Under the pieces are notes generated by a model. It was not told the origin of the DNA and ran no database searches. It saw nothing but the letters and a program-made list of their open reading frames with translations. A program made the translations under genes and the position numbers. Positions 3,347 through 14,286 of a DNA stretch of 40,091 bases are shown here, piece by piece. Each line of letters begins with the position of its first letter. The stretch's first letter is position 1. Origin of the DNA: Candidatus Tiamatella incendiivivens (GTDB lineage Archaea > Thermoproteota > Thermoprotei_A > Sulfolobales > Acidilobaceae); the NCBI GenBank assembly GCA_015522635.1, contig WALW01000021.1, forward strand, positions 1 to 40,091. The letters run 5' to 3'.

Positions 3347-3385
3347 TAAAGGATAAGCAGAACACTACTCCTTCAGGAGATGCAT

Positions 3386-3567
3386 GTTGAAACTAATTGG
3401 CATCTTATCCTTATAATGCAGATTGGATTATTCGCAGACTGATGGTAGATTGTTTAAAAAGTATTAACAAGAACGCTAATACGGTAAACTCACCGCCTGG
3501 AGTGGAAGGGATTATAGTAAACCCCTAAGCCTAACAATATAAGGATAAGATGCCAGATAGTTTCAAC
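3386..3567. repeat. 30-bp inverted repeat, arms 122 bp apart
   Basis: Bases 3386-3415 are the reverse complement of 3538-3567 with two mismatches. The shared core reads GGCATCTTATCCTTATA on the left arm. The right arm interrupts the homology between the degenerate tRNA-Val copy and the true tRNA flank, so it appears to have been inserted there. This may be a MITE-like remnant or the scar of an inversion. No target duplication is obvious. Confidence 0.55.
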
Positions 3568-3650
3568 ACCGTGGAAATCACTAACACCTCAGCATGTAGG
3601 CAGACTAGCAGTCTAGCCTTGTTAGGACGCCACCTAAGCGCGGTCGGAGC
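3510..3650 (+). pseudogene. Degenerate tRNA-Val copy with duplicated 5' flank
   Basis: Bases 3611-3631 match the D-arm and start of the anticodon stem of the intact tRNA-Val at 20 of 21 positions. The upstream flank is also recognisable: GGGATTATAGTAAACCCCTA here against GGGATTAGAGTAATAAACCC before the real gene, and a CACCTCAGCA block. The acceptor 5' strand, anticodon loop and T arm are ruined, so no working tRNA can form. It is a duplicated and decayed tRNA-Val locus including its promoter region, with a 30-bp insertion. Confidence 0.6.
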
Positions 3651-3719
3651 CTGGGCACACCGATCTTAGCAACATACAGCATAGACAAAGCAGTCCTCAG
3701 CCTAGACAGGGCGCCGATC

Positions 3720-3778
3720 TTCGAAGCTGTGAGGGTCCTCAGGGGGGTTCAGATTTAGGCTGGCCCGCCACGCATATA
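3720..3778 (+). repeat. 59-bp direct repeat, left copy
   Basis: Identical over 59 bases to 4718-4776, starting TTCGAAGCTG and ending CCACGCATATA. The two copies flank a VapBC pair. The centre, GGGGGGTTCAG followed by GGCTGGCCCGCCAC, faintly resembles a tRNA-Val T-arm and acceptor end but lacks base pairing. Alternatively the repeat carries the last codons of a lost gene (FEAVRVLRGVQI, then stop). Confidence 0.9.
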
Positions 3779-3906
3779 AACTTCTCTATAAGCCTACACT
3801 CTCCAGGGTGGAGTATGTGACTCCTGTTTTCAACTAAGAGTGGGGATGGCTCAAGCTAAGTCGATGATGTTCCTGCACAATAATTCCCCCATCAGCCTCT
3901 ATCAGA

Positions 3907-4341
3907 TTATGGAACTACTTTGATCCATGGAACTCTCTTGAAGTCCTTGTCTAGTGTTGCTATGGTGGTTATCTCGTGTTGCTTGCATGTTAATGTTATT
4001 ATTGCGTCTGCGGGCATTAGGCCATATTCTTCCATGAACCGGATTATCTCCCCTGGCTCTCCCTTTAGTGGTAGTGTTGTGAAGAGCTTTAACACGGGCC
4101 AGACATCATTTTTGACTAGGCCTACGGGCCTCTTATCCCTCTTCGCCAATAGCTTCCTTATTCTCCTCGAGCTGAGTCCTGTTGTGAGCCGTAGATAACC
4201 ATATATGACTTCGTCAACTACTAGGGGATTAATGTATCCATCGATTTCGCGTTTTTCAACCTCCTTTACGAGTTCCCGGGATCTATTATCTTGGCCCGCG
4301 AGGAACGCTAGTATAATGCTGGTGTCCACGAAGATCCTCAT
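3907..4341 (-). CDS. vapC: VapC-type PIN-domain ribonuclease toxin
   Basis: Single PIN domain, 144 aa, a metal-dependent endoribonuclease toxin that in known cases cuts tRNA or rRNA. Seen: first acidic residue Asp6 in RIFVDTSIIL, conserved Glu in the VVDEVIYGY helix (about residue 44), the third acid in GLMPADAIITL (about 113), and the last in TIATLDKDF (about 130). The ATG at 4341 overlaps the 3' end of the preceding antitoxin by 56 bases, so the pair is translated together. It sits inside a roughly 1-kb unit bounded by exact 59-bp repeats. Function assigned by fold and context; the RNA target is unknown. Confidence 0.88.
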   Translation of the reverse strand: MRIFVDTSIILAFLAGQDNRSRELVKEVEKREIDGYINPLVVDEVIYGYLRLTTGLSSRRIRKLLAKRDKRPVGLVKNDVWPVLKLFTTLPLKGEPGEIIRFMEEYGLMPADAIITLTCKQHEITTIATLDKDFKRVPWIKVVP

Positions 4342-4540
4342 CTTCTATCTCCTCGAGAACCTCTATGAACTCCTCCTTGCTAATGTCCGCCCTGTGTTTT
4401 CTTGCGATACCATAGAACCTGTCGGCAATCGATCCTCTTGGACTTATAATTATCTGAACTTCCTCACCCTCCTCAAGGTCAACGGGTTCTAAGAGCTTCA
4501 GCACACCATTCCTATACACCGCTTTAACAACTTTGGACAA
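4286..4540 (-). CDS. vapB: VapB-type antitoxin, DUF104/AF2212-like
   Basis: Short antitoxin paired with the overlapping PIN toxin. The N-terminus VVKAVYRNGVLKLLEPVDLEEGEEVQI is typical of the AF2212-like (DUF104) family, a small beta-barrel that binds DNA or dimerises. The rest (DRFYGIARKHRADISKEEFIEVLEEIEDEDLRG) is an acidic helix expected to wrap the toxin. The start is TTG 4540 or GTG 4552; the family usually begins just before KVVKAVY, which favours 4540. Probably autoregulates the pair. Confidence 0.8.
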   Translation of the reverse strand: MSKVVKAVYRNGVLKLLEPVDLEEGEEVQIIISPRGSIADRFYGIARKHRADISKEEFIEVLEEIEDEDLRGHQHYTSVPRGPR

Positions 4541-4717
4541 TCCTTTGAACACCCCGAGAATTACTATAGCATTTCAACCCAATATGCTTTTACTGGTACA
4601 TGAATAGTGGATGAAGATTCCAGATTATCATTGCTGGTAGTTTCTATGATAATCATCTATGCATGATGCTTGCAGTTTATAGGTTCTTCTAGAAACATAG
4701 TTTATACATCTCTAGGT

Positions 4718-4776
4718 TTCGAAGCTGTGAGGGTCCTCAGGGGGGTTCAGATTTAGGCTGGCCCGCCACGCATATA
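4718..4776 (+). repeat. 59-bp direct repeat, right copy
   Basis: Exact copy of 3720-3778; the identity stops sharply on both sides. The unit between the copies is about 940 bp and contains only the VapBC pair. Perfect identity over 59 bases amid otherwise decayed DNA implies recent duplication, recombination or gene conversion. Confidence 0.9.
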
Positions 4777-5001
4777 CCTTTTATATGGTTCCTGACTGTC
4801 TCTGATAAATTCCATACAGGATGCAGGTCTCCGCTCATGAAGGGCTCGGAGAATAGAAGTAAGAATGTGATGTAGTGCCTGCCGGGCACGCTAATATATG
4901 TTCGATGACCTGGATTATACTCATTTACCTGTTGATATGGTGAGGGGAGGGATTAGAGTAATAAACCCCCTAGGCGAACAATACGATAGAAACGACCGAA
5001 A

Positions 5002-5015
5002 CCTCAGCACTGAGG
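5002..5015 (+). promoter_or_regulatory. Hairpin just upstream of tRNA-Val
   Basis: CCTCAGCACTGAGG is a perfect 14-base palindrome ending two bases before the mature tRNA 5' end. It would lie in the precursor leader and could fold there, or be a regulator site. The decayed copy near 3586 keeps only the left half. Confidence 0.4.
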
Positions 5016-5017
5016 TT

Positions 5018-5095
5018 GGGCCCGTCGTCTAGCCTGGTTAGGACGCCGCCCTGACACGGCGGAGGTCCGGGGTTCAAGTCCCCGCGGGCCCACCA
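5018..5095 (+). tRNA. tRNA-Val(GAC), encoded CCA
   Basis: Complete cloverleaf: acceptor GGGCCCG pairs perfectly with CGGGCCC, D stem GTCT/GGAC, anticodon stem CCGCC/GGCGG with loop CTGACAC (anticodon GAC), and T arm CGGGG-TTCAAGT-CCCCG. Discriminator A at 5092 and genomic CCA at 5093-5095. No intron. Its 3' part, from the T arm through CCA, is the sequence repeated at 6438, 8857 and 9886, which marks it as an integration target. Confidence 0.96.
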
Positions 5096-5529
5096 AACAC
5101 CAGTATAATTCCTTCTAAAACCAATAACAAAAACAATTTATAACACAAACCTGAAATCAATCTGTTATACGGTTGTTTACACCAGCGAAAAACAGCCAAA
5201 CGTATGGTGGTTTGTATACGTATTGCTACAAGTTGAAATACAAGCCAGTAGTAAACCCTGAAGGGGGAGCCCGGCAACTAATAGCAGAGCTGAAATAAGA
5301 TAACATCAATAATAGCCTCCGAGGCAATGCGGGCCAAGCTAATCATGGGTGGCAGGTAGAGCTAGCAGGTTTTTACTGGAGTAGCACTGGGCGTCACGTT
5401 AGTGTTACTAACCATTGGGGCAGGAGTAATAGCGTCAATGGTAATTCACAGACGCATCATGAAAATAGGCCTAGTAGAAACACCGGGGGCGGACTGAGAA
5501 AAAATAACGGTGTATCCAGCACTCCTAAA
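5096..5529. other. Gene-poor start of first tRNA-Val-borne element
   Basis: Apart from the membrane-segment remnant at 5366-5497, nothing coding is seen. The first 150 bases are AT-rich. This is the element side of the junction formed at the tRNA 3' end. Confidence 0.4.
5366..5497 (+). pseudogene. Remnant encoding a membrane segment
   Basis: An open stretch of 43 codons with no usable start reads a hydrophobic helix (VALGVTLVLLTIGAGVIASM), then basic HRRIMK, then a stop. It resembles the C-terminal anchor of a membrane or viral structural protein. The preceding codon is a stop, so only a tail survives. It lies just inside the first element after tRNA-Val. The parent family is not recognised. 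Confidence 0.3.
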
Positions 5530-5811
5530 TTACTTGTACACCCTACCTCTATGGTGGATATGGTAAATGATTACCTCCATCTTCTCAATGTCCAACCGGA
5601 AAATAACCCTCAAATCACCGATCCTAAGCCTGAGAAATCCGGACCACTTACCTTTAAGCCGTTTAATATCCATGGAGTGAATAGGAATTGACCCTTTATT
5701 CAGGTTCTCCAGTAAAACATTAATCTCGGTAAGAACCCTTTTCTTCTGGTATCCGGGTAAATTCTCAATGAACTTTAAAGCCTTCTTACTGATCCTTAAC
5801 TTCCACTCCAT
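5530..5811 (-). CDS. relE: RelE/ParE-family toxin
   Basis: 93-aa toxin of the RelE superfamily; relatives cut mRNA on the ribosome. Seen: N-terminal strand and helix EWKLRISKKALKFIENLP, the central DIKRLKGKWSGFLRLRIGDLRVIFR hairpin with the basic residues (Lys, Arg) typical of the RNA-binding face, and the final strand VIIYHIHHRGRVYK. It overlaps the upstream antitoxin by 16 bases, the usual arrangement. The pair is the only complete gene set between tRNA-Val and its first 3'-end repeat. Confidence 0.88.
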   Translation of the reverse strand: MEWKLRISKKALKFIENLPGYQKKRVLTEINVLLENLNKGSIPIHSMDIKRLKGKWSGFLRLRIGDLRVIFRLDIEKMEVIIYHIHHRGRVYK

Positions 5812-5984
5812 TCCACAAAATCTTCCTCCTCATATTCCTCGGGAGACCCAGCTTTCTTATCTATTTCAGCCTGCTCCACATCATCTACTACAGGAACCAT
5901 TTCCAATAAAGCCTCCAGAACAGCCTTCCTAACCTCCTCTCTAATAATACTCCTCAAAGTCTCCTCGTTCACATTCAAAGACAT
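5796..5984 (-). CDS. relB: RelB-type antitoxin
   Basis: 62-aa acidic, helical protein directly before relE and overlapping it. The N-terminal half (EETLRSIIREEVRKAVLEALLEM) is an amphipathic helix suited to dimerisation, and the C-terminal half is very acidic (EEYEEEDFVEW), as expected for the part that covers a basic toxin. The ATG at 5984 is preceded by GGGGGC about 10 bases upstream. It is assigned by size, charge and position; sequence families of such archaeal RelB proteins are weakly conserved. Confidence 0.75.
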   Translation of the reverse strand: MSLNVNEETLRSIIREEVRKAVLEALLEMVPVVDDVEQAEIDKKAGSPEEYEEEDFVEWSGS

Positions 5985-6025
5985 CTCTTTGCCCCCTACA
6001 AAAATAACTATACCTATTCAAACCC

Positions 6026-6036
6026 TATAAAATATA
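6026..6036 (-). promoter_or_regulatory. TATA box for relBE
   Basis: TATAAAATATA (TATATTTTATA on the coding strand) lies 42 bases before the relB ATG. This leaves room for a short leader containing the purine-rich GGGGGCAAAGAG ribosome site. Confidence 0.5.
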
Positions 6037-6437
6037 CTATGAGAAAAAAAGGACAACAATACATATACTTGAACCTTAACCAAGAACCATTCTAGCAGAG
6101 AAGGAAACAAACTACACAGAGATCCAGCGAGTATTAGAACCCGCAAAACACGAGAATCCTGTTCCTAGAAATAACAATTCAATCCATTCATTAGAGATGG
6201 GATGCCTTGTTAATAGTTTTAGGAGTGTCGTTTAACCAGCTCTCCTCGGACTACGTATAGACACTATACCATACTTGCCTGGGTCTACTATATTATGCAG
6301 ATGAAAGTATAATCTAGGTATAAATTTGAGGAGAACACTAATAGAACAAACAAAACCTATTCTAGTATACTACAATCACATAGATCCTAAGGAAACCGCT
6401 TCCACCCGAATACACGCTCTCCACAGGTGGATGCCGA
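6037..6437. other. AT-rich stretch right of relBE
   Basis: No convincing gene. An open frame across the tRNA repeat exists but has no family resemblance and reads through the att sequence, so it is not called. The stretch runs up to the tRNA-Val 3' repeat. Confidence 0.4.
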
Positions 6438-6465
6438 GGGTTCAAGTCCCCGCGGGCCCACCAAA
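6438..6465 (+). repeat. tRNA-Val 3'-end repeat 1 (att-like)
   Basis: 28 bases identical to 5070-5097 of the tRNA-Val locus: T-arm loop GGGTTCAAGTCCCC, acceptor strand CGCGGGCCC, ACCA and two following A residues. The upstream parts of the tRNA are absent. This is the expected product of site-specific integration at the tRNA 3' end, closing an element that starts at 5096. Confidence 0.85.
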
Positions 6466-6542
6466 AACCAAACTAAAAGTATGTTATATCCTCTTCTATG
6501 GCGTTGCCTAGAATAAATAGAATAGCACTTTGTGTATTGAAT

Positions 6543-6726
6543 ATGCCTGAGATAGAGGTTTTGTTAAGAGTATTGTGATTATTCCGCTAAAGCCTTTGAC
6601 CGAGCTTGAAGGTAGGAAAGTCTAGATAAAGATCATGGAAGTTGAAGTGTTGACATCGAGAAGCTTTATTCTTACCTCAGGCTCTTAAGGGAGGGTGAAG
6701 ATGCTGGAGAGCTTTTCGAAATATAG
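6543..6726 (+). pseudogene. Decayed DUF104-type antitoxin gene
   Basis: In pieces, the plus strand reads MPEIEVL, then in a second frame VIIPLKPLTELEGRKV, stop, IKIMEVEV, then in a third VDIEKLYSYLRLLREGEDAGELFEI, stop. The order and wording match AF2212-like antitoxins (a PLEPL-ELEGKEV-like core, then an acidic helix). At least one frameshift before the core, one in-frame TAG, and one frameshift after break it. No toxin gene follows, so this is the residue of another toxin-antitoxin module. Confidence 0.45.
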
Positions 6727-6741
6727 TCAAGGAGACATTCA

Positions 6742-6969
6742 TTATTTGGTTATTTGAATCTGTTTTTTGAGTTTTTTAGATATTGTGTTTGTTATGTTTT
6801 CTAGTATGTTAGTAGAAGCCTTCCATATTTCGATTCCAATTATGTTTCCATTCTTGTCTAATTCTATATATATGTCATCGTCGGCTGGTAATGTATCCTC
6901 GACAGGTCCTTCCTTGGTTATTATGTATAATATGTCGGCCTCAGGATCATAGTGAACTTTCTTTACCAT
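6742..6969 (-). CDS. DUF2283 small protein
   Basis: 75-aa protein with the DUF2283 signature: VHYDPEADILYI at residues 5-16, then acidic DDDIYIELDKNGNIIGIEIWKAS. DUF2283 proteins are commonly encoded next to DUF4258 or similar genes and are suspected antitoxin-like partners. ATG 6969 is chosen: it overlaps the DUF4258 stop by seven bases and GGTGG precedes it. A GTG at 6981 is also open. Confidence 0.8.
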   Translation of the reverse strand: MVKKVHYDPEADILYIITKEGPVEDTLPADDDIYIELDKNGNIIGIEIWKASTNILENITNTISKKLKKQIQITK

Positions 6970-7250
6970 ACTGGGATCCACCTTCCGCTTATTGTTTTCT
7001 TTTCCACTATTCTATCTATGTTTTTAGTGTCTATAACTGTAACTATCCGGTATGTATCGTTTTTCTTTTTGTAAACCACTATGAGCCAATGATCCTTCCT
7101 CCCCGTTCTCTTGCCCACAGATATTAAAGTATCTGTAACAATATCATAATAGACATTAACCGGGTTAGAAAGTACCTCAGCAACCTCGTTTTCCCCGATT
7201 TCTCTTATACTAACCCTGAGTTCGGCATGCCTGGAATAAGCAATTTTCAA
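6963..7250 (-). CDS. DUF4258 family, RelE/BrnT-like putative toxin
   Basis: About 95 aa from TTG 7250. Family features: IAYSRHAELRVSIREIGENEV near the start (His and Arg of the helix), DTLISVGKRTG, then KDHWLIVVYKKKNDTYRIVTVI. DUF4258 belongs to the RelE-like fold group and is a suspected RNase toxin. The frame is open to 7316, but the family begins at KIAYSRHAELR, which supports TTG 7250 with GGGTG about 10 bases upstream. It overlaps DUF2283, so the pair is co-translated with the suspected toxin first. Confidence 0.75.
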   Translation of the reverse strand: MKIAYSRHAELRVSIREIGENEVAEVLSNPVNVYYDIVTDTLISVGKRTGRKDHWLIVVYKKKNDTYRIVTVIDTKNIDRIVEKKTISGRWIPVW

Positions 7251-7363
7251 TAGATAAGCACACCCTTTTAGAAATAGACTTTGATATAGCATATAAGTCA
7301 TATAATGAAGGAGCAAAACTAGAAATTAGATTCCTAATACTATAATTATGTATTGACTATTGT

Positions 7364-7642
7364 TCACAGAAGATACCTCCTCTCAGTCAGGAACTCGGTA
7401 AGTGCATCCTTATCCACTTTTTGCGAGTACTTTTCCAGGATTCTTAATGTGCCGTTTGAAATAGCTTTTTTCACCCTATGTGACTTGAAGAGTTTATTGA
7501 AGCCCCTCCTACTTATCCTCAACCTTATACTGGAATCCCGGTTCAGGAAACCTTCCACCGTATATACCAATAGAACTTGGAATCTTAAAGGTTTTACAGG
7601 GCTTAAACAATACAGTCCCATAGAACAACTATGAACTATCAA
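7364..7642 (-). CDS. Small repeated-module protein, copy 1
   Basis: Not recognised. The C-terminal 55 residues (from IRLRISRRGFNKLFKSHRVK to FLTERRYLL) are almost identical to a second gene at 11535-11738. Very basic middle, then a helix KAISNGTLRILEKY and an acidic/basic tail. The pattern of one strand followed by two helices would suit a ribbon-helix-helix DNA-binding antitoxin, but no family match is claimed. The N-terminal 35 residues are not shared and may not be real, so the true start may lie near residue 37. Confidence 0.45.
   Translation of the reverse strand: MIVHSCSMGLYCLSPVKPLRFQVLLVYTVEGFLNRDSSIRLRISRRGFNKLFKSHRVKKAISNGTLRILEKYSQKVDKDALTEFLTERRYLL
7405..7519. repeat. 115-bp dispersed repeat, copy 1
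   Basis: Matches 11615-11729 with one mismatch (G/A in GCCGTTTG). Weaker similarity extends about 35 bases left and 25 right. It lies inside the small gene at 7364-7642. Near-identity at DNA level shows a recent duplication between two cassettes of the island. Confidence 0.88.
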
Positions 7643-7693
7643 AGATCGAAGGAATTTGGAAGAGAGTGTTATACTAGTCGTTGTTTGAATAAA

Positions 7694-7993
7694 TTATTCT
7701 GTATTAGGCATATATATCCGGGCTTGATATACTCCGTCTGTGATGGTGACATGTTTTCTTCCCTTGTAGATTCTGAGATGCTTTTTCTTGGCCTCTTCAA
7801 TTATCCTGCGTATATTAGAGCATTTTAGCTCCAGGTATGGTGGGTGATAGCTTATTTTCAATAGGTGTCCTGCTTCTATTGCTTTTCTAGTATATCCTAC
7901 GGGTTCGCATTGTTTAAATAGGAAGGCCATGTATTCTGGTAGTCCTAATCCGGGTACAAGTCTTACTATTCTAAGGTTTCTATTGGTTGTCAT
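7694..7993 (-). CDS. Small basic protein coupled to a nucleotidyltransferase
   Basis: 99 aa, family not recognised. Starts ATGA, overlapping the nucleotidyltransferase stop by four bases, so the two are one translation unit. Segments: RIVRLVPGLGLPEYMAFLFK, then HLLKISYHPPYLELKCSNIRRIIEEAKKKHLRIYKGRKHVTITDG. The basic C-terminal half could bind nucleic acid. By position it could be the partner protein of the transferase, as in MNT/HEPN or AbiE-like systems, but no HEPN RX4-6H motif is visible. Confidence 0.6.
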   Translation of the reverse strand: MTTNRNLRIVRLVPGLGLPEYMAFLFKQCEPVGYTRKAIEAGHLLKISYHPPYLELKCSNIRRIIEEAKKKHLRIYKGRKHVTITDGVYQARIYMPNTE

Positions 7994-8541
7994 TTTAGTT
8001 TCATCCTCTTTAGTATTTTTTCGAACTCTCTTTCTAACCCTGTTTGGATTAGCCGGTTGTCTAGATATTCTTTGTCTAGACTATTCCATGATTGTAATAA
8101 TATCTTCTTTAGATCTGCGATGTCTTTTCTTTCTCCTGACATAAGTTTGAGAATCACTAGGTCTTCAAGGCTTGGGACTCTGAGATTTACCCCAATTCTA
8201 ATGCTCCGTTTAATGAATTCTTCGTCTAAGGTTAGCGGAGCATAATTTATGTCAACGTGTATATCATTTTCAAGGAGTAGACCCCATTTCCTCCATTGAA
8301 CTTTATAACCTGATTTCCTCAGGATTCCAGTCAGTTTATCTCTAAGTTCTGTGGTGAATACTTTATCAACAACCAAATCCCAGTCTTTTGTTTCTCGACC
8401 TATGTCAATGCCCAATATTATCAGGCTTCGGGCACCTATCACAAAAACATTTAGACCGGTCTTATGAAGTATGTTTGCTATGTCTATAACTTCAGGGTGA
8501 ACGATATCGTTAATGAGATCATTTTCCTTTGACTTTATCAT
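7990..8541 (-). CDS. Nucleotidyltransferase-fold protein (MNT/AbiEii-like)
   Basis: 183 aa. Seen: the Pol-beta-type nucleotidyltransferase signature, helix then VFVIGARSLIILGI (about 34-47), then the acidic pair in KDWDLVVDK (Asp57, Asp59), and a third candidate acid in DIHVDINYAP (about 95-97). The tail VPSLEDLVILKLMSGERKDIADLKKIL is the usual regulatory helix bundle of AbiEii/MNT and DUF6036-type enzymes. Relatives act as type IV toxins or as antitoxins that AMPylate a partner. The four-base overlap with the next gene suggests a two-gene module. Confidence 0.75.
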   Translation of the reverse strand: MIKSKENDLINDIVHPEVIDIANILHKTGLNVFVIGARSLIILGIDIGRETKDWDLVVDKVFTTELRDKLTGILRKSGYKVQWRKWGLLLENDIHVDINYAPLTLDEEFIKRSIRIGVNLRVPSLEDLVILKLMSGERKDIADLKKILLQSWNSLDKEYLDNRLIQTGLEREFEKILKRMKLK

Positions 8542-8582
8542 TTAATGATCACCTAGGAATGAATTAAACTCATATAATAGTA

Positions 8583-8783
8583 CTAGTTTTTCGTGGCATA
8601 CTCTATGGATGCCAGGACATCCTCTTTTGTTAGGCGCGGGTATTCTCTTATCGTATCCTCAATGCTCCACCCGTTGGGGAATAGTTCGAGTATAAAGTAT
8701 ACTGGAATCCGAGTGCCTTTAATTACTGGTTCCCCGCCCATAACCTTCGGATCTATCGTTATTCTCTTTGTAGCTTCAGCCAT
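8583..8783 (-). CDS. DUF433 antitoxin-like protein
   Basis: 66 aa, complete DUF433 domain: RITIDPKVMGGEPVIKGTRIPVYFILELFPNG at residues 7-38, then helix YPRLTKEDVLASIEYA. DUF433 is a helix-turn-helix-like antitoxin family (VapB45-type) normally paired with a DUF5615/Mut7-C PIN-like toxin. No such partner is next to it, so it is an orphan. The ATG at 8783 is followed by AEATKRITID. Confidence 0.82.
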   Translation of the reverse strand: MAEATKRITIDPKVMGGEPVIKGTRIPVYFILELFPNGWSIEDTIREYPRLTKEDVLASIEYATKN

Positions 8784-9058
8784 TTTTCACTCCCTAATAA
8801 ATTAAATTAATCTTTTACCCCTTATTAATTGAGGCAAGCTTACTCTGTAATACCATGGAGATCCGGGGTTCAAGTCCCCGCGGCCCACCGCTTATAGAGC
8901 CTTTTAACTGCACGAAAGAAAACTCTAAAGCAGCTCAGAAAGCATGCTGATTCCTGCCAAAAGAATCCTTGAAAGCCTTAGCTGCCCTGTTAGAGTACAG
9001 GAATAACGTAAGGTATAAGGGGAGTTATGCATAATGGATTACTCGGGGGGTATAGGAA
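8784..9058. other. Junction region around tRNA-Val repeat 2
   Basis: No gene. AT-rich upstream DNA of the DUF433 gene, the second tRNA-Val fragment, then 170 bases leading to the VapBC pair. Confidence 0.4.
8857..8889 (+). repeat. tRNA-Val 3'-end repeat 2 (att-like)
   Basis: GGAGATCCGGGGTTCAAGTC and what follows match tRNA-Val 5061-5094 except one A/G change and one missing G in the acceptor strand (CGCGGCCCACC). The terminal CCA is followed by unrelated sequence. An older copy of the integration junction, slightly decayed. Confidence 0.82.
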
Positions 9059-9286
9059 TTGCCTCGAGTTGTAAAAGTTATTGTGCCTGACGAAGTGAAG
9101 GAATCAGAGATTGCGCGATGGATAGCAGAGGGATTATCGAGAAAAATATTTCGAGATATTGTTATAGAGTCTCTATCCGAGGGAGTCGAGATCGATTTTG
9201 AGAGAGCTCTAGAGGAGTTCGAGAGGACTCGTGATGAGGTATGGAAGAAAATAGAGAGAGAATATATGGAGAAGGGTATAATCTAG
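9059..9286 (+). CDS. vapB: VapB-type antitoxin
   Basis: 75 aa, TTG start. Short N-terminal strand RVVKVIVPDEV, then two helices (ESEIARWIAEGLSRKIFRDI and a highly acidic ERALEEFERTRDEVWKKIER). The acidic C-terminus and its position directly before a PIN toxin, overlapping it by 46 bases, identify it as the antitoxin. Occupies the segment between tRNA-Val fragments 2 and 3. Confidence 0.75.
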   Translation: MPRVVKVIVPDEVKESEIARWIAEGLSRKIFRDIVIESLSEGVEIDFERALEEFERTRDEVWKKIEREYMEKGII

Positions 9287-9756
9287 CATTTATCGTTGAC
9301 AGTAATATTATATTCTCAATAGTAGTTGCTGGTAGAAGAGCCCGAGTTTATAGGATTATCTCGGAGCACCGAGACCTGAAATTATTCTCTCCCGAGGAAG
9401 TTTTAATAGAGTTCCGAGAGCATACAAGGAAGCTCAAGAAGAGTGCTCGTGTAGAATTCTGGAATAAGGTTCTGTTAGCTTTTTCATTAATCAGAATTAT
9501 CCCTAGAGAGGTATATAAGGAAGCTTTACGGGAAGCATACTCTATTGCAAGGATCTTTGATGCGAAGGATACACCGTTTATAGCACTCTCGCTTAAGCTG
9601 GACCTCCCTATATGGACTGAGGATAGAGGTTTACTACAGGCCTCCTTCAAACCGGGAAGATATGTGGCACTTGATACAGAGGCTGTCGACAAGTTACTGA
9701 AGGGCGAGTCGTTAGAAACCATCCGAGAAAAACTGTATAGGAAACTCTTCAAATAG
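9241..9756 (+). CDS. vapC: PIN-domain toxin, VapC-like
   Basis: 171 aa. PIN motifs: Asp in FIVDSNIIFS (about residue 20), Glu in SPEEVLIEF (about 58), Asp in ARIFDAKDTPFIALSL (two acids near 111-114), and Asp in WTEDRGLL. The ATG at 9241 gives an 18-residue lead before the PIN core and overlaps the antitoxin; no closer ATG, GTG or TTG precedes the core in frame, so this start is kept. Ribonuclease toxin by family. Lies alone with vapB between two tRNA-Val 3' fragments. Confidence 0.83.
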   Translation: MEENRERIYGEGYNLAFIVDSNIIFSIVVAGRRARVYRIISEHRDLKLFSPEEVLIEFREHTRKLKKSARVEFWNKVLLAFSLIRIIPREVYKEALREAYSIARIFDAKDTPFIALSLKLDLPIWTEDRGLLQASFKPGRYVALDTEAVDKLLKGESLETIREKLYRKLFK

Positions 9757-10056
9757 CGTATCATACTCACTTACTACATGCATATGTGATGGTGTTTAAC
9801 ATCATATTGATATCTCCTAACTGATATTCATTTTGGAGTGAATGCTTATTCGGCAATGCTAGCATATGAATTTAATTATGTTCTCACACGGCGGAGGTCA
9901 GGGGTTCAGGTCCTCGCGGGCCCACACTCCACTAGACTTTGCCCTACATTTCGAGGCGTCACTTTTGATGATAGGGATACTTCTACTGTAGTGTGACAGG
10001 GTTAGCTGATTTGTCAAGGGATTTGAAGAGTTTTTCAAGAGTCTCTTTGAAGCTTC
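9757..10056. other. Junction region around tRNA-Val repeat 3
   Basis: No gene in these 300 bases. It holds the third tRNA-Val fragment and AT-rich DNA on either side. Confidence 0.4.
9886..9925 (+). repeat. tRNA-Val 3'-end repeat 3 (att-like)
   Basis: 40 bases matching tRNA-Val 5054-5093 with three mismatches, reaching further 5' than the other copies, into the anticodon loop (ACACGGCGGAGGTCAGGGGT). Two of the changes fall in the T stem and loop. Probably an older junction. Confidence 0.82.
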
Positions 10057-11534: not shown

Positions 11535-11738
11535 TCAGATACGTTCTGTTGACTTCCAAGCTTTGACAGGAGTTGAGGGTAAGAACCTCCTCTCTGTCAA
11601 GAGCTCGGTGGTTACATCCTTATCCACTTTTTGCGAGTACTTTTCCAGGATTCTTAATGTGCCATTTGAAATAGCTTTTTTCACCCTATGTGACTTGAAG
11701 AGTTTATTGAAGCCCCTCCTACTTATCCTTAATCTCAT
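11535..11738 (-). CDS. Small repeated-module protein, copy 2
   Basis: 67 aa with ATG start. Residues 1-52 are nearly identical to the C-terminal part of the gene at 7364-7642; the last 15 residues (STPVKAWKSTERI) differ. Basic first half (RLRISRRGFNKLFKSHRVKK), then helix ISNGTLRILEKYSQK. Family unknown. It lies upstream of ATPase 1 on the same strand and could be its regulator, though it may also be a truncated fragment. Confidence 0.45.
   Translation of the reverse strand: MRLRISRRGFNKLFKSHRVKKAISNGTLRILEKYSQKVDKDVTTELLTERRFLPSTPVKAWKSTERI
11615..11729. repeat. 115-bp dispersed repeat, copy 2
   Basis: Partner of 7405-7519, one mismatch. Links the nucleotidyltransferase/DUF433 cassette with the ATPase cassette. 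Confidence 0.88.
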
Positions 11739-11789
11739 AACTAGAGTCTCAGTTTAAAATTCCTGCTTTAAATTGGAGGCTGAGATATA

Positions 11790-13351: not shown

Positions 13352-14286
13352 ATGGTTTCACTGGATCCGGATACTATTCCCCAGCCTGTTCGAAGGATGC
13401 TATTACTGAGACTTTATGATAGCTTGACAGGTAAGGCCGTTATCGTTACTAGTGGTAGTATGAGGGAGTTTGGGGAGTATTTGGAGGCTAGGTTGTGTCC
13501 GGTGATCTGGCTAGGAAGACTGCTAATGACAGGATGAGGTATCTACAGCTCGCTTTGAGAGAGCTTAATTACACCTTAACCAAACGAGGTTTACGGAGGC
13601 TGATAAGGAGGTATCAGGCTAGGTGGCCCGGTGTGGCTGATCACTTGTACAAAGCTTTGAAGTTATTCGTCAAGGAGATAATACAGGACAAGGAGCTGGC
13701 GGACAGTGTTCCTAGGCCTAGAATAGAGTGGTCTTCCCCGAAGGCGCCCACATGGCATGATATCTGCCTTCTAGCCGAGAACCTGCCATATGCTAGTCCC
13801 CCGAGAATGCTGTTATTAACGGCTGCATCTACTGGTATACGTATACAGACTGTATATGATCTGAGGCTAGAGAATGTTAGAGATAGAACCATCTGGCTAT
13901 GGAGATCCCGGCATAGTAAGAGGGTATACTTTAGCTTTGTTACGAGGAAACTGGCTAGGGAGATGGAGGACTATCTTAGATATAGGAATGATTATCTCTC
14001 AGTTTTGGGTAGGAGGAGCAGTAAGATGTTTCCCTACAAGCCTAAGCGATTGCGTTTGGAACTCTATAGTGCAATGGACCGGGTGTTAGGGTATAGGTTT
14101 CAGTTGAAGCAGTTGCGTAAGAGGTTCGCTGAGCATATGTCTCATCATTCGAGTACTTTGGAGTTACAGGTTCTCATGGGCCACGCTTCCAGGGAGGTTG
14201 TGGAGAAACATTATTTGCTGAGGGACCAGGTCGAGGATTTGTTGAGGAAGTATGATGAAGCCATGGGTAATGTTGAGTGCCTTTAG
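13352..14286 (+). pseudogene. int: SSV-like tyrosine recombinase (integrase), frameshifted
   Basis: Two overlapping frames together make one integrase. The first (ATG 13352, ending at 13537) gives the start of the core-binding domain up to MREFGEYLEARL. The second, open from about 13495, continues SGDLARKTANDRMRYLQLAL and runs to the end. The catalytic half has Arg in STGIRIQTVYDL, Lys in RHSKRVYFS, Arg in QLRKRFAEHM, His in MGHAS and Tyr in EKHYLLRD, the expected R-K-R-H-Y order. A one-base shift near 13490 breaks the gene; translation could restart at the GTG near 13495, losing part of the core-binding domain. Probably belongs to the elements at tRNA-Val. Confidence 0.72.

Follow-up and report, generated by a model that had tools for sequence, protein, structure and literature searches.

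A vapBC cassette between tRNA-Arg-like direct repeats, and related integrase-free cassette arrays behind archaeal tRNA-Arg genes

The window, meaning the whole stretch of DNA analysed here, comprises 40,091 nucleotides of Candidatus Tiamatella incendiivivens. Two direct repeats on its plus strand, at 3720–3778 and 4718–4776, are identical at 59 of 59 positions, lie 998 bp apart and enclose a vapBC pair, as the initial annotation had reported. The vapC gene (3907–4341, minus strand) encodes a PIN-domain toxin of 144 residues (Pfam PF01850, E 6.7e-18) that aligns with the conserved acidic residues of its family (D6, E44, D112, D131), and vapB (4286–4552, minus strand) encodes an AF2212-like antitoxin of 88 residues (PF01954, E 1.9e-18). 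Given these two domains and the retained acidic residues, the pair is predicted to be a type II VapBC toxin-antitoxin system forming one operon. The region upstream of vapB (4553–4717, minus strand) holds a TATA-like box, TTTATA on the plus strand, at 4701–4706. Hallmarks of an insertion sequence were not found, vapBC being alone between the repeats and no terminal inverted repeat pair being listed for the unit. A search allowing up to three mismatches found the 59-mer only at these two places in its own genome and nowhere in the other 47 genomes of the family; an exact search of the GTDB genomes for the 30-base core of the 59-mer found nothing.

Among 34 tRNAs detected in loci of its own genome, the one that the 59-mer matched best was tRNA-Arg(TCG), from the anticodon loop (TTCG) to the CCA end, with the repeat running 8 bases further. 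The score was reached by none of 1946 random 59-mers from the window and by one of 500 dinucleotide shuffles. The adjacent tRNA-Val was rejected as a source, its match being weaker than that of tRNA-Arg. The observation that the ends of the cassette differ from the 28-bp tRNA-Val repeat held up. By alignment, then, the 59-bp repeat is assigned as an altered tRNA-Arg(TCG) 3' half extended by 8 bases, with an attL-like tRNA-side copy at 3720–3778 and an attR-like distal copy at 4718–4776.

The two copies have different flanks: the D-arm of tRNA-Arg adjoins the left one, and the vapB promoter region adjoins the right one. On the left, the alignment with tRNA-Arg(TCG) extends over 3695–3770 (plus strand) with a score of 56, above the maximum of 44 in 5000 shuffles; this relic runs from D-arm to CCA, lacks the 5' end, and is too decayed to match the Rfam tRNA model. 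Ahead of it stands an internal scrap of a MATE efflux gene (3648–3710, plus strand) with 57–61% amino acid identity to the MATE genes of the same genome (contig G000:C10) and of the same-genus genome G045, in both of which an intact MATE gene lies directly upstream of tRNA-Arg(TCG). Since scrap and D-arm precede the left copy in the order of the intact locus, the left side is a shortened MATE/tRNA-Arg(TCG) relic. The initial annotation had proposed that the repeat encodes a protein tail; this was rejected, the frame in question (FEAVRVLRGVQI) being that of the MATE relic (about 3648–3710) as it enters tRNA-derived DNA. The related idea of a duplicated gene end used as recombination site survives in part: such an end is the likely site of recombination, but the gene is tRNA-Arg(TCG), not a protein gene. 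On the right, the segment from vapB to the site (4553–4717) aligns with the end of the second cassette in the genome's own tRNA-Arg(TCG) array (score 109, shuffled maximum 45), which is evidence that relies on neither the protein comparison nor that of the sites.

That array, on contig G000:C10, consists of tRNA-Arg(TCG), a vapBC pair paralogous to the one in the window, and a tRNA-Arg 3' half; beyond these lie another two sites of that kind. Arrays at tRNA-Arg genes were found in five genomes (G000, G005, G006, G038, G045). Among 98 tRNAs with enough downstream DNA, 3'-half repeats occurred mostly at tRNA-Arg (CCG, TCG, GCG) and tRNA-Val, the few other matches (tRNA-Cys, tRNA-Ser) mostly looking like adjoining tRNA genes; these proportions are not an unbiased rate because, with G006 covered whole and G000 nearly so, the loci of G038, G045 and G005 were picked for a nearby VapC. 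Repeats within arrays are mostly spaced at 0.9–1.1 kb, or at distances as great as roughly double. In general a unit consists of a vapB/vapC-type pair, encoded opposite to the tRNA, and is ended by a copy of the tRNA-Arg 3' half, and most distal sites have a TATA-like box about 10 bases ahead of them on the vapB side. The remaining units encode different PIN or PIN-like proteins, an HhH-GPD-like fragment or a small protein resembling aspartyl proteases; ten were checked and no integrase was among them. In some cassettes of G045 and G005 (loci L191, L193) a small retropepsin-like aspartyl protease takes the place of the PIN toxin.

Many array sites have altered T-loops. One exact T-loop variant pattern occurred in only 2 of 197 genomes of the order and was too specific to be of use. 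At the distal sites of L115, L187 and L192 the T-stem is mostly kept and the T-loop TTCAAAT is changed to CCCTAAT, CCATGAAT or TCTCTAAT. A single variant sometimes recurs at several sites of one genome.

The unit in the window (cassette body plus distal site, 3779–4776, 998 bp) matches in geometry the cassettes that other genomes carry at tRNA-Arg genes. Both of its bounds are copies of the tRNA-Arg 3' half beginning at the anticodon loop, altered yet far above random DNA in their match; vapBC lies on the minus strand, opposite the tRNA, and the end of vapC is 128 bp from the site. The minimal cassette envisaged in the initial annotation is thus present, as one vapBC pair between two such 3' halves. 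It departs from the class in lacking a functional upstream tRNA-Arg, having only the 5'-truncated relic, and in being displaced to a position beside tRNA-Val. Its vapBC is closest to those of tRNA-Arg(CCG) cassettes in G006 and G038. A check of 4777–4944 for remains of further cassettes gave no alignment above shuffles. Judged by these sequence features, the unit is best classified as a displaced, decayed stray member of the tRNA-Arg cassette class.

The displacement can be set against the tRNA-Val locus itself. An intact tRNA-Val(GAC), located with ARAGORN at 5018–5095 (plus strand), anchors a separate array downstream, and a decayed copy of its upstream region and 5' half lies at 3460–3655 (plus strand; aligned with 4942–5072). 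Positions 3460–3539 of that copy are 75% identical to the region upstream of tRNA-Val in the same-genus genome G045. From the end of the lysine gene to tRNA-Val the gap is about 130 bases in G045 versus about 1.65 kb in the window, so that G045 offers a site free of the vapBC unit. The second, decayed upstream copy suggests that the segment came with, or before, a rearrangement of the tRNA-Val locus.

Sites of this kind are widespread next to vapC. Within the family, 23 of 30 VapC loci had one in the fetched flank (17 of them 126–229 bases past the end of vapC), compared with none of 10 MATE control loci. In a wider set of 125 VapC homologues, for which the two window sites were entered by hand, 38 had a site within 300 bases past the end of vapC, and 33 of these lay at 107–153 bases, a range that includes the 128 of the window. 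Named records with such sites belong to Acidilobaceae, Aeropyrum, Pyrodictiaceae, Staphylothermus and Zestosphaera; among 19 euryarchaeal and Altiarchaeales loci with related VapCs, no site adjoined vapC.

The relationships among the toxins point to exchange. Loci with two or more site-linked VapCs provided 12 VapCs, and each of these had its nearest relative in another genome, at 66–96% identity, and never in the same locus, a tally to be read with the caveat that most compared genomes are metagenome bins and that mixed bins could inflate apparent exchange; G005 and G006 are single-contig genomes. From these 12 cases, sequence comparison indicates that cassettes have been exchanged between genomes, and tandem duplication was rejected as the source of the arrays. 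Carriage by a virus or plasmid was rejected as well, the viral contigs having neither VapC relatives nor an exact tRNA-Arg 3' half.

The 59-bp repeats are therefore read here as probable attachment-type sites, derived from the tRNA-Arg(TCG) 3' half, around one integrase-less toxin-antitoxin cassette that would be moved by site-specific recombination in trans. Archaeal tyrosine recombinases are known to use tRNA 3' halves, with the overlap at the anticodon loop (PMC8371274). The integrase-less cassettes lie head to tail behind tRNA-Arg genes in Desulfurococcales, and most likely two tRNA-Arg 3' halves would recombine site-specifically, the strands being exchanged close to or within the anticodon loop; a circular intermediate would be formed, and the tyrosine recombinase would be supplied by a passing virus or plasmid, or would be the host XerA. 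No recombinase was linked to the sites, and neither a circle nor a scar of excision came to light in this analysis. In the window, the head of an array (MATE scrap, tRNA-Arg relic, one cassette and distal site) lies displaced beside tRNA-Val and is decayed; vapBC is still intact, presumably on account of being addictive or useful.

That the window sites are identical calls for a further step. The left copy lies in a decayed tRNA relic and shares its changes with the right one, a state that a single simple insertion does not directly produce. The 59/59 identity would come either from insertion of a cassette whose site was varied in the same way or from copying by gene conversion between the sites. 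Neighbouring identical variant sites are also present in G005.

Such identity also fits growth of the arrays by homologous recombination without a dedicated recombinase, with tandem duplication of cassettes by unequal crossing-over at tRNA-Arg 3' halves and their spread by ectopic recombination. Adjacent sites that are sometimes identical up to and including the promoter region (sites 1 and 2 at tRNA-Arg(TCG) of G005), and the lack of an integrase among the units examined, fit this alternative too. It is nonetheless unlikely, in view of the missing same-locus relatives among the 12 VapCs of multi-cassette loci and of the differing cassettes at one locus in genomes of the same genus: between G000 and G045 the MATE/tRNA-Arg(TCG) locus is 86% identical over MATE plus tRNA, whereas the cassettes reach at most about 72% at the nucleotide level. 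A single insertion event, in which vapBC duplicated a 59-bp target that resembles a tRNA by chance and has no relation to tRNA arrays, would accommodate a repeat that is too decayed for the Rfam model and that reaches 8 bases beyond CCA, but it is highly improbable against the shuffle and random-window tests, the MATE scrap and D-arm in exactly the intact-locus order on the left, the homology to the end of a cassette of the genome's own array on the right, and the shared cassette geometry. Common short sequencing reads are longer than a 59-bp repeat, and each flank differs and is as predicted for its side from other arrays, so that duplication of the second copy during assembly is unlikely in the extreme even in a genome assembled in 27 contigs.

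For site-specific recombination in trans, the favored reading, the choice of recombinase can be narrowed. The PF00589 proteins found comprise a few diverged members and, in each genome, one XerA-type protein located away from the arrays. G005, which carries two arrays, has a single PF00589 recombinase, a XerA equivalog, and no PF16795 match, so that XerA is the sole tyrosine recombinase of the two families searched in this array-bearing single-contig genome. The recombinase would accordingly be XerA, that of a non-resident helper, or a protein outside PF00589 and PF16795. No integrase, whole or split in the manner of SSV-type elements, was found within the window unit, the nearest being at 13495–14286, and no IntI integrase adjoined an array. 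The gene at 13495–14286 encodes a diverged XerA-like tyrosine recombinase of 263 residues (42 bits, versus a XerA cut-off of 220) and adjoins two ORFs with Walker-type ATPase-like motifs.

It is already known that elements integrate in tandem at archaeal tRNA genes and that tRNA 3' ends hold integrase sites (PMC8371274). Like SSV-type and other tyrosine-recombinase elements integrated at archaeal tRNA genes, the cassettes have a tRNA 3' half as putative attachment site, bounded at the anticodon loop, have direct repeats at both ends and occur in tandem (PMC8371274); unlike them, they have no integrase gene, whole or split, are mostly about 1 kb long with one toxin-antitoxin pair, and are stacked in numbers at a single tRNA. 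With bacterial integron arrays and CALINs they share a head-to-tail order of small units that each end in a putative recombination site. Toxin-antitoxin cargo, exchange between genomes and a presumed recombinase outside the cassette are further common traits. They differ from these in having a tRNA-Arg 3' half in place of attC and a tRNA gene in place of attI, in that no IntI was found, and in vapBC having an apparent promoter of its own. In Sulfolobus islandicus, vapBC pairs are many and vary among strains, and tRNA genes are integration hot spots, but the vapBC loci are mostly described with flanks of degenerate insertion sequences, not tRNA 3' halves (PMC3718332). The literature searched, which excepted most subscription journals, yielded no description of stacked integrase-less toxin-antitoxin cassettes between tRNA-Arg 3' halves.

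More tentatively, and as a possibility that falls somewhat short of probable, Desulfurococcales may have an integron-like system of their own, in which toxin-antitoxin cassettes pass from species to species and accumulate behind tRNA-Arg genes, the 3' half serving as recombination site for an enzyme that acts in trans and may be the host XerA. Were this so, hyperthermophilic archaea would have a means of cassette capture comparable to bacterial integrons, with a tRNA gene as platform, and the richness of these genomes in vapBC would be partly explained. Should G005 and G006 prove to be Aeropyrum camini and A. pernix, cultivable species would make the system testable.

The tRNA-Val(GAC) array of the window (5018–9925) has 3'-end repeats at 6438, 8857 and 9883, and its units carry a ParE-like pair, several small genes and a PIN_2 protein. 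The last of these units is 72% identical over 814 bp to a unit at tRNA-Val(CAC) in G006. Upstream, an inverted repeat of 34 nt (3385–3568, 91% complementary, arms 116 nt apart) encloses part of the decayed copy of the tRNA-Val upstream region. Further along, a direct repeat of 155 nt, 93% identical, is found at 7375–7529 and 11585–11739, 4.2 kb apart.
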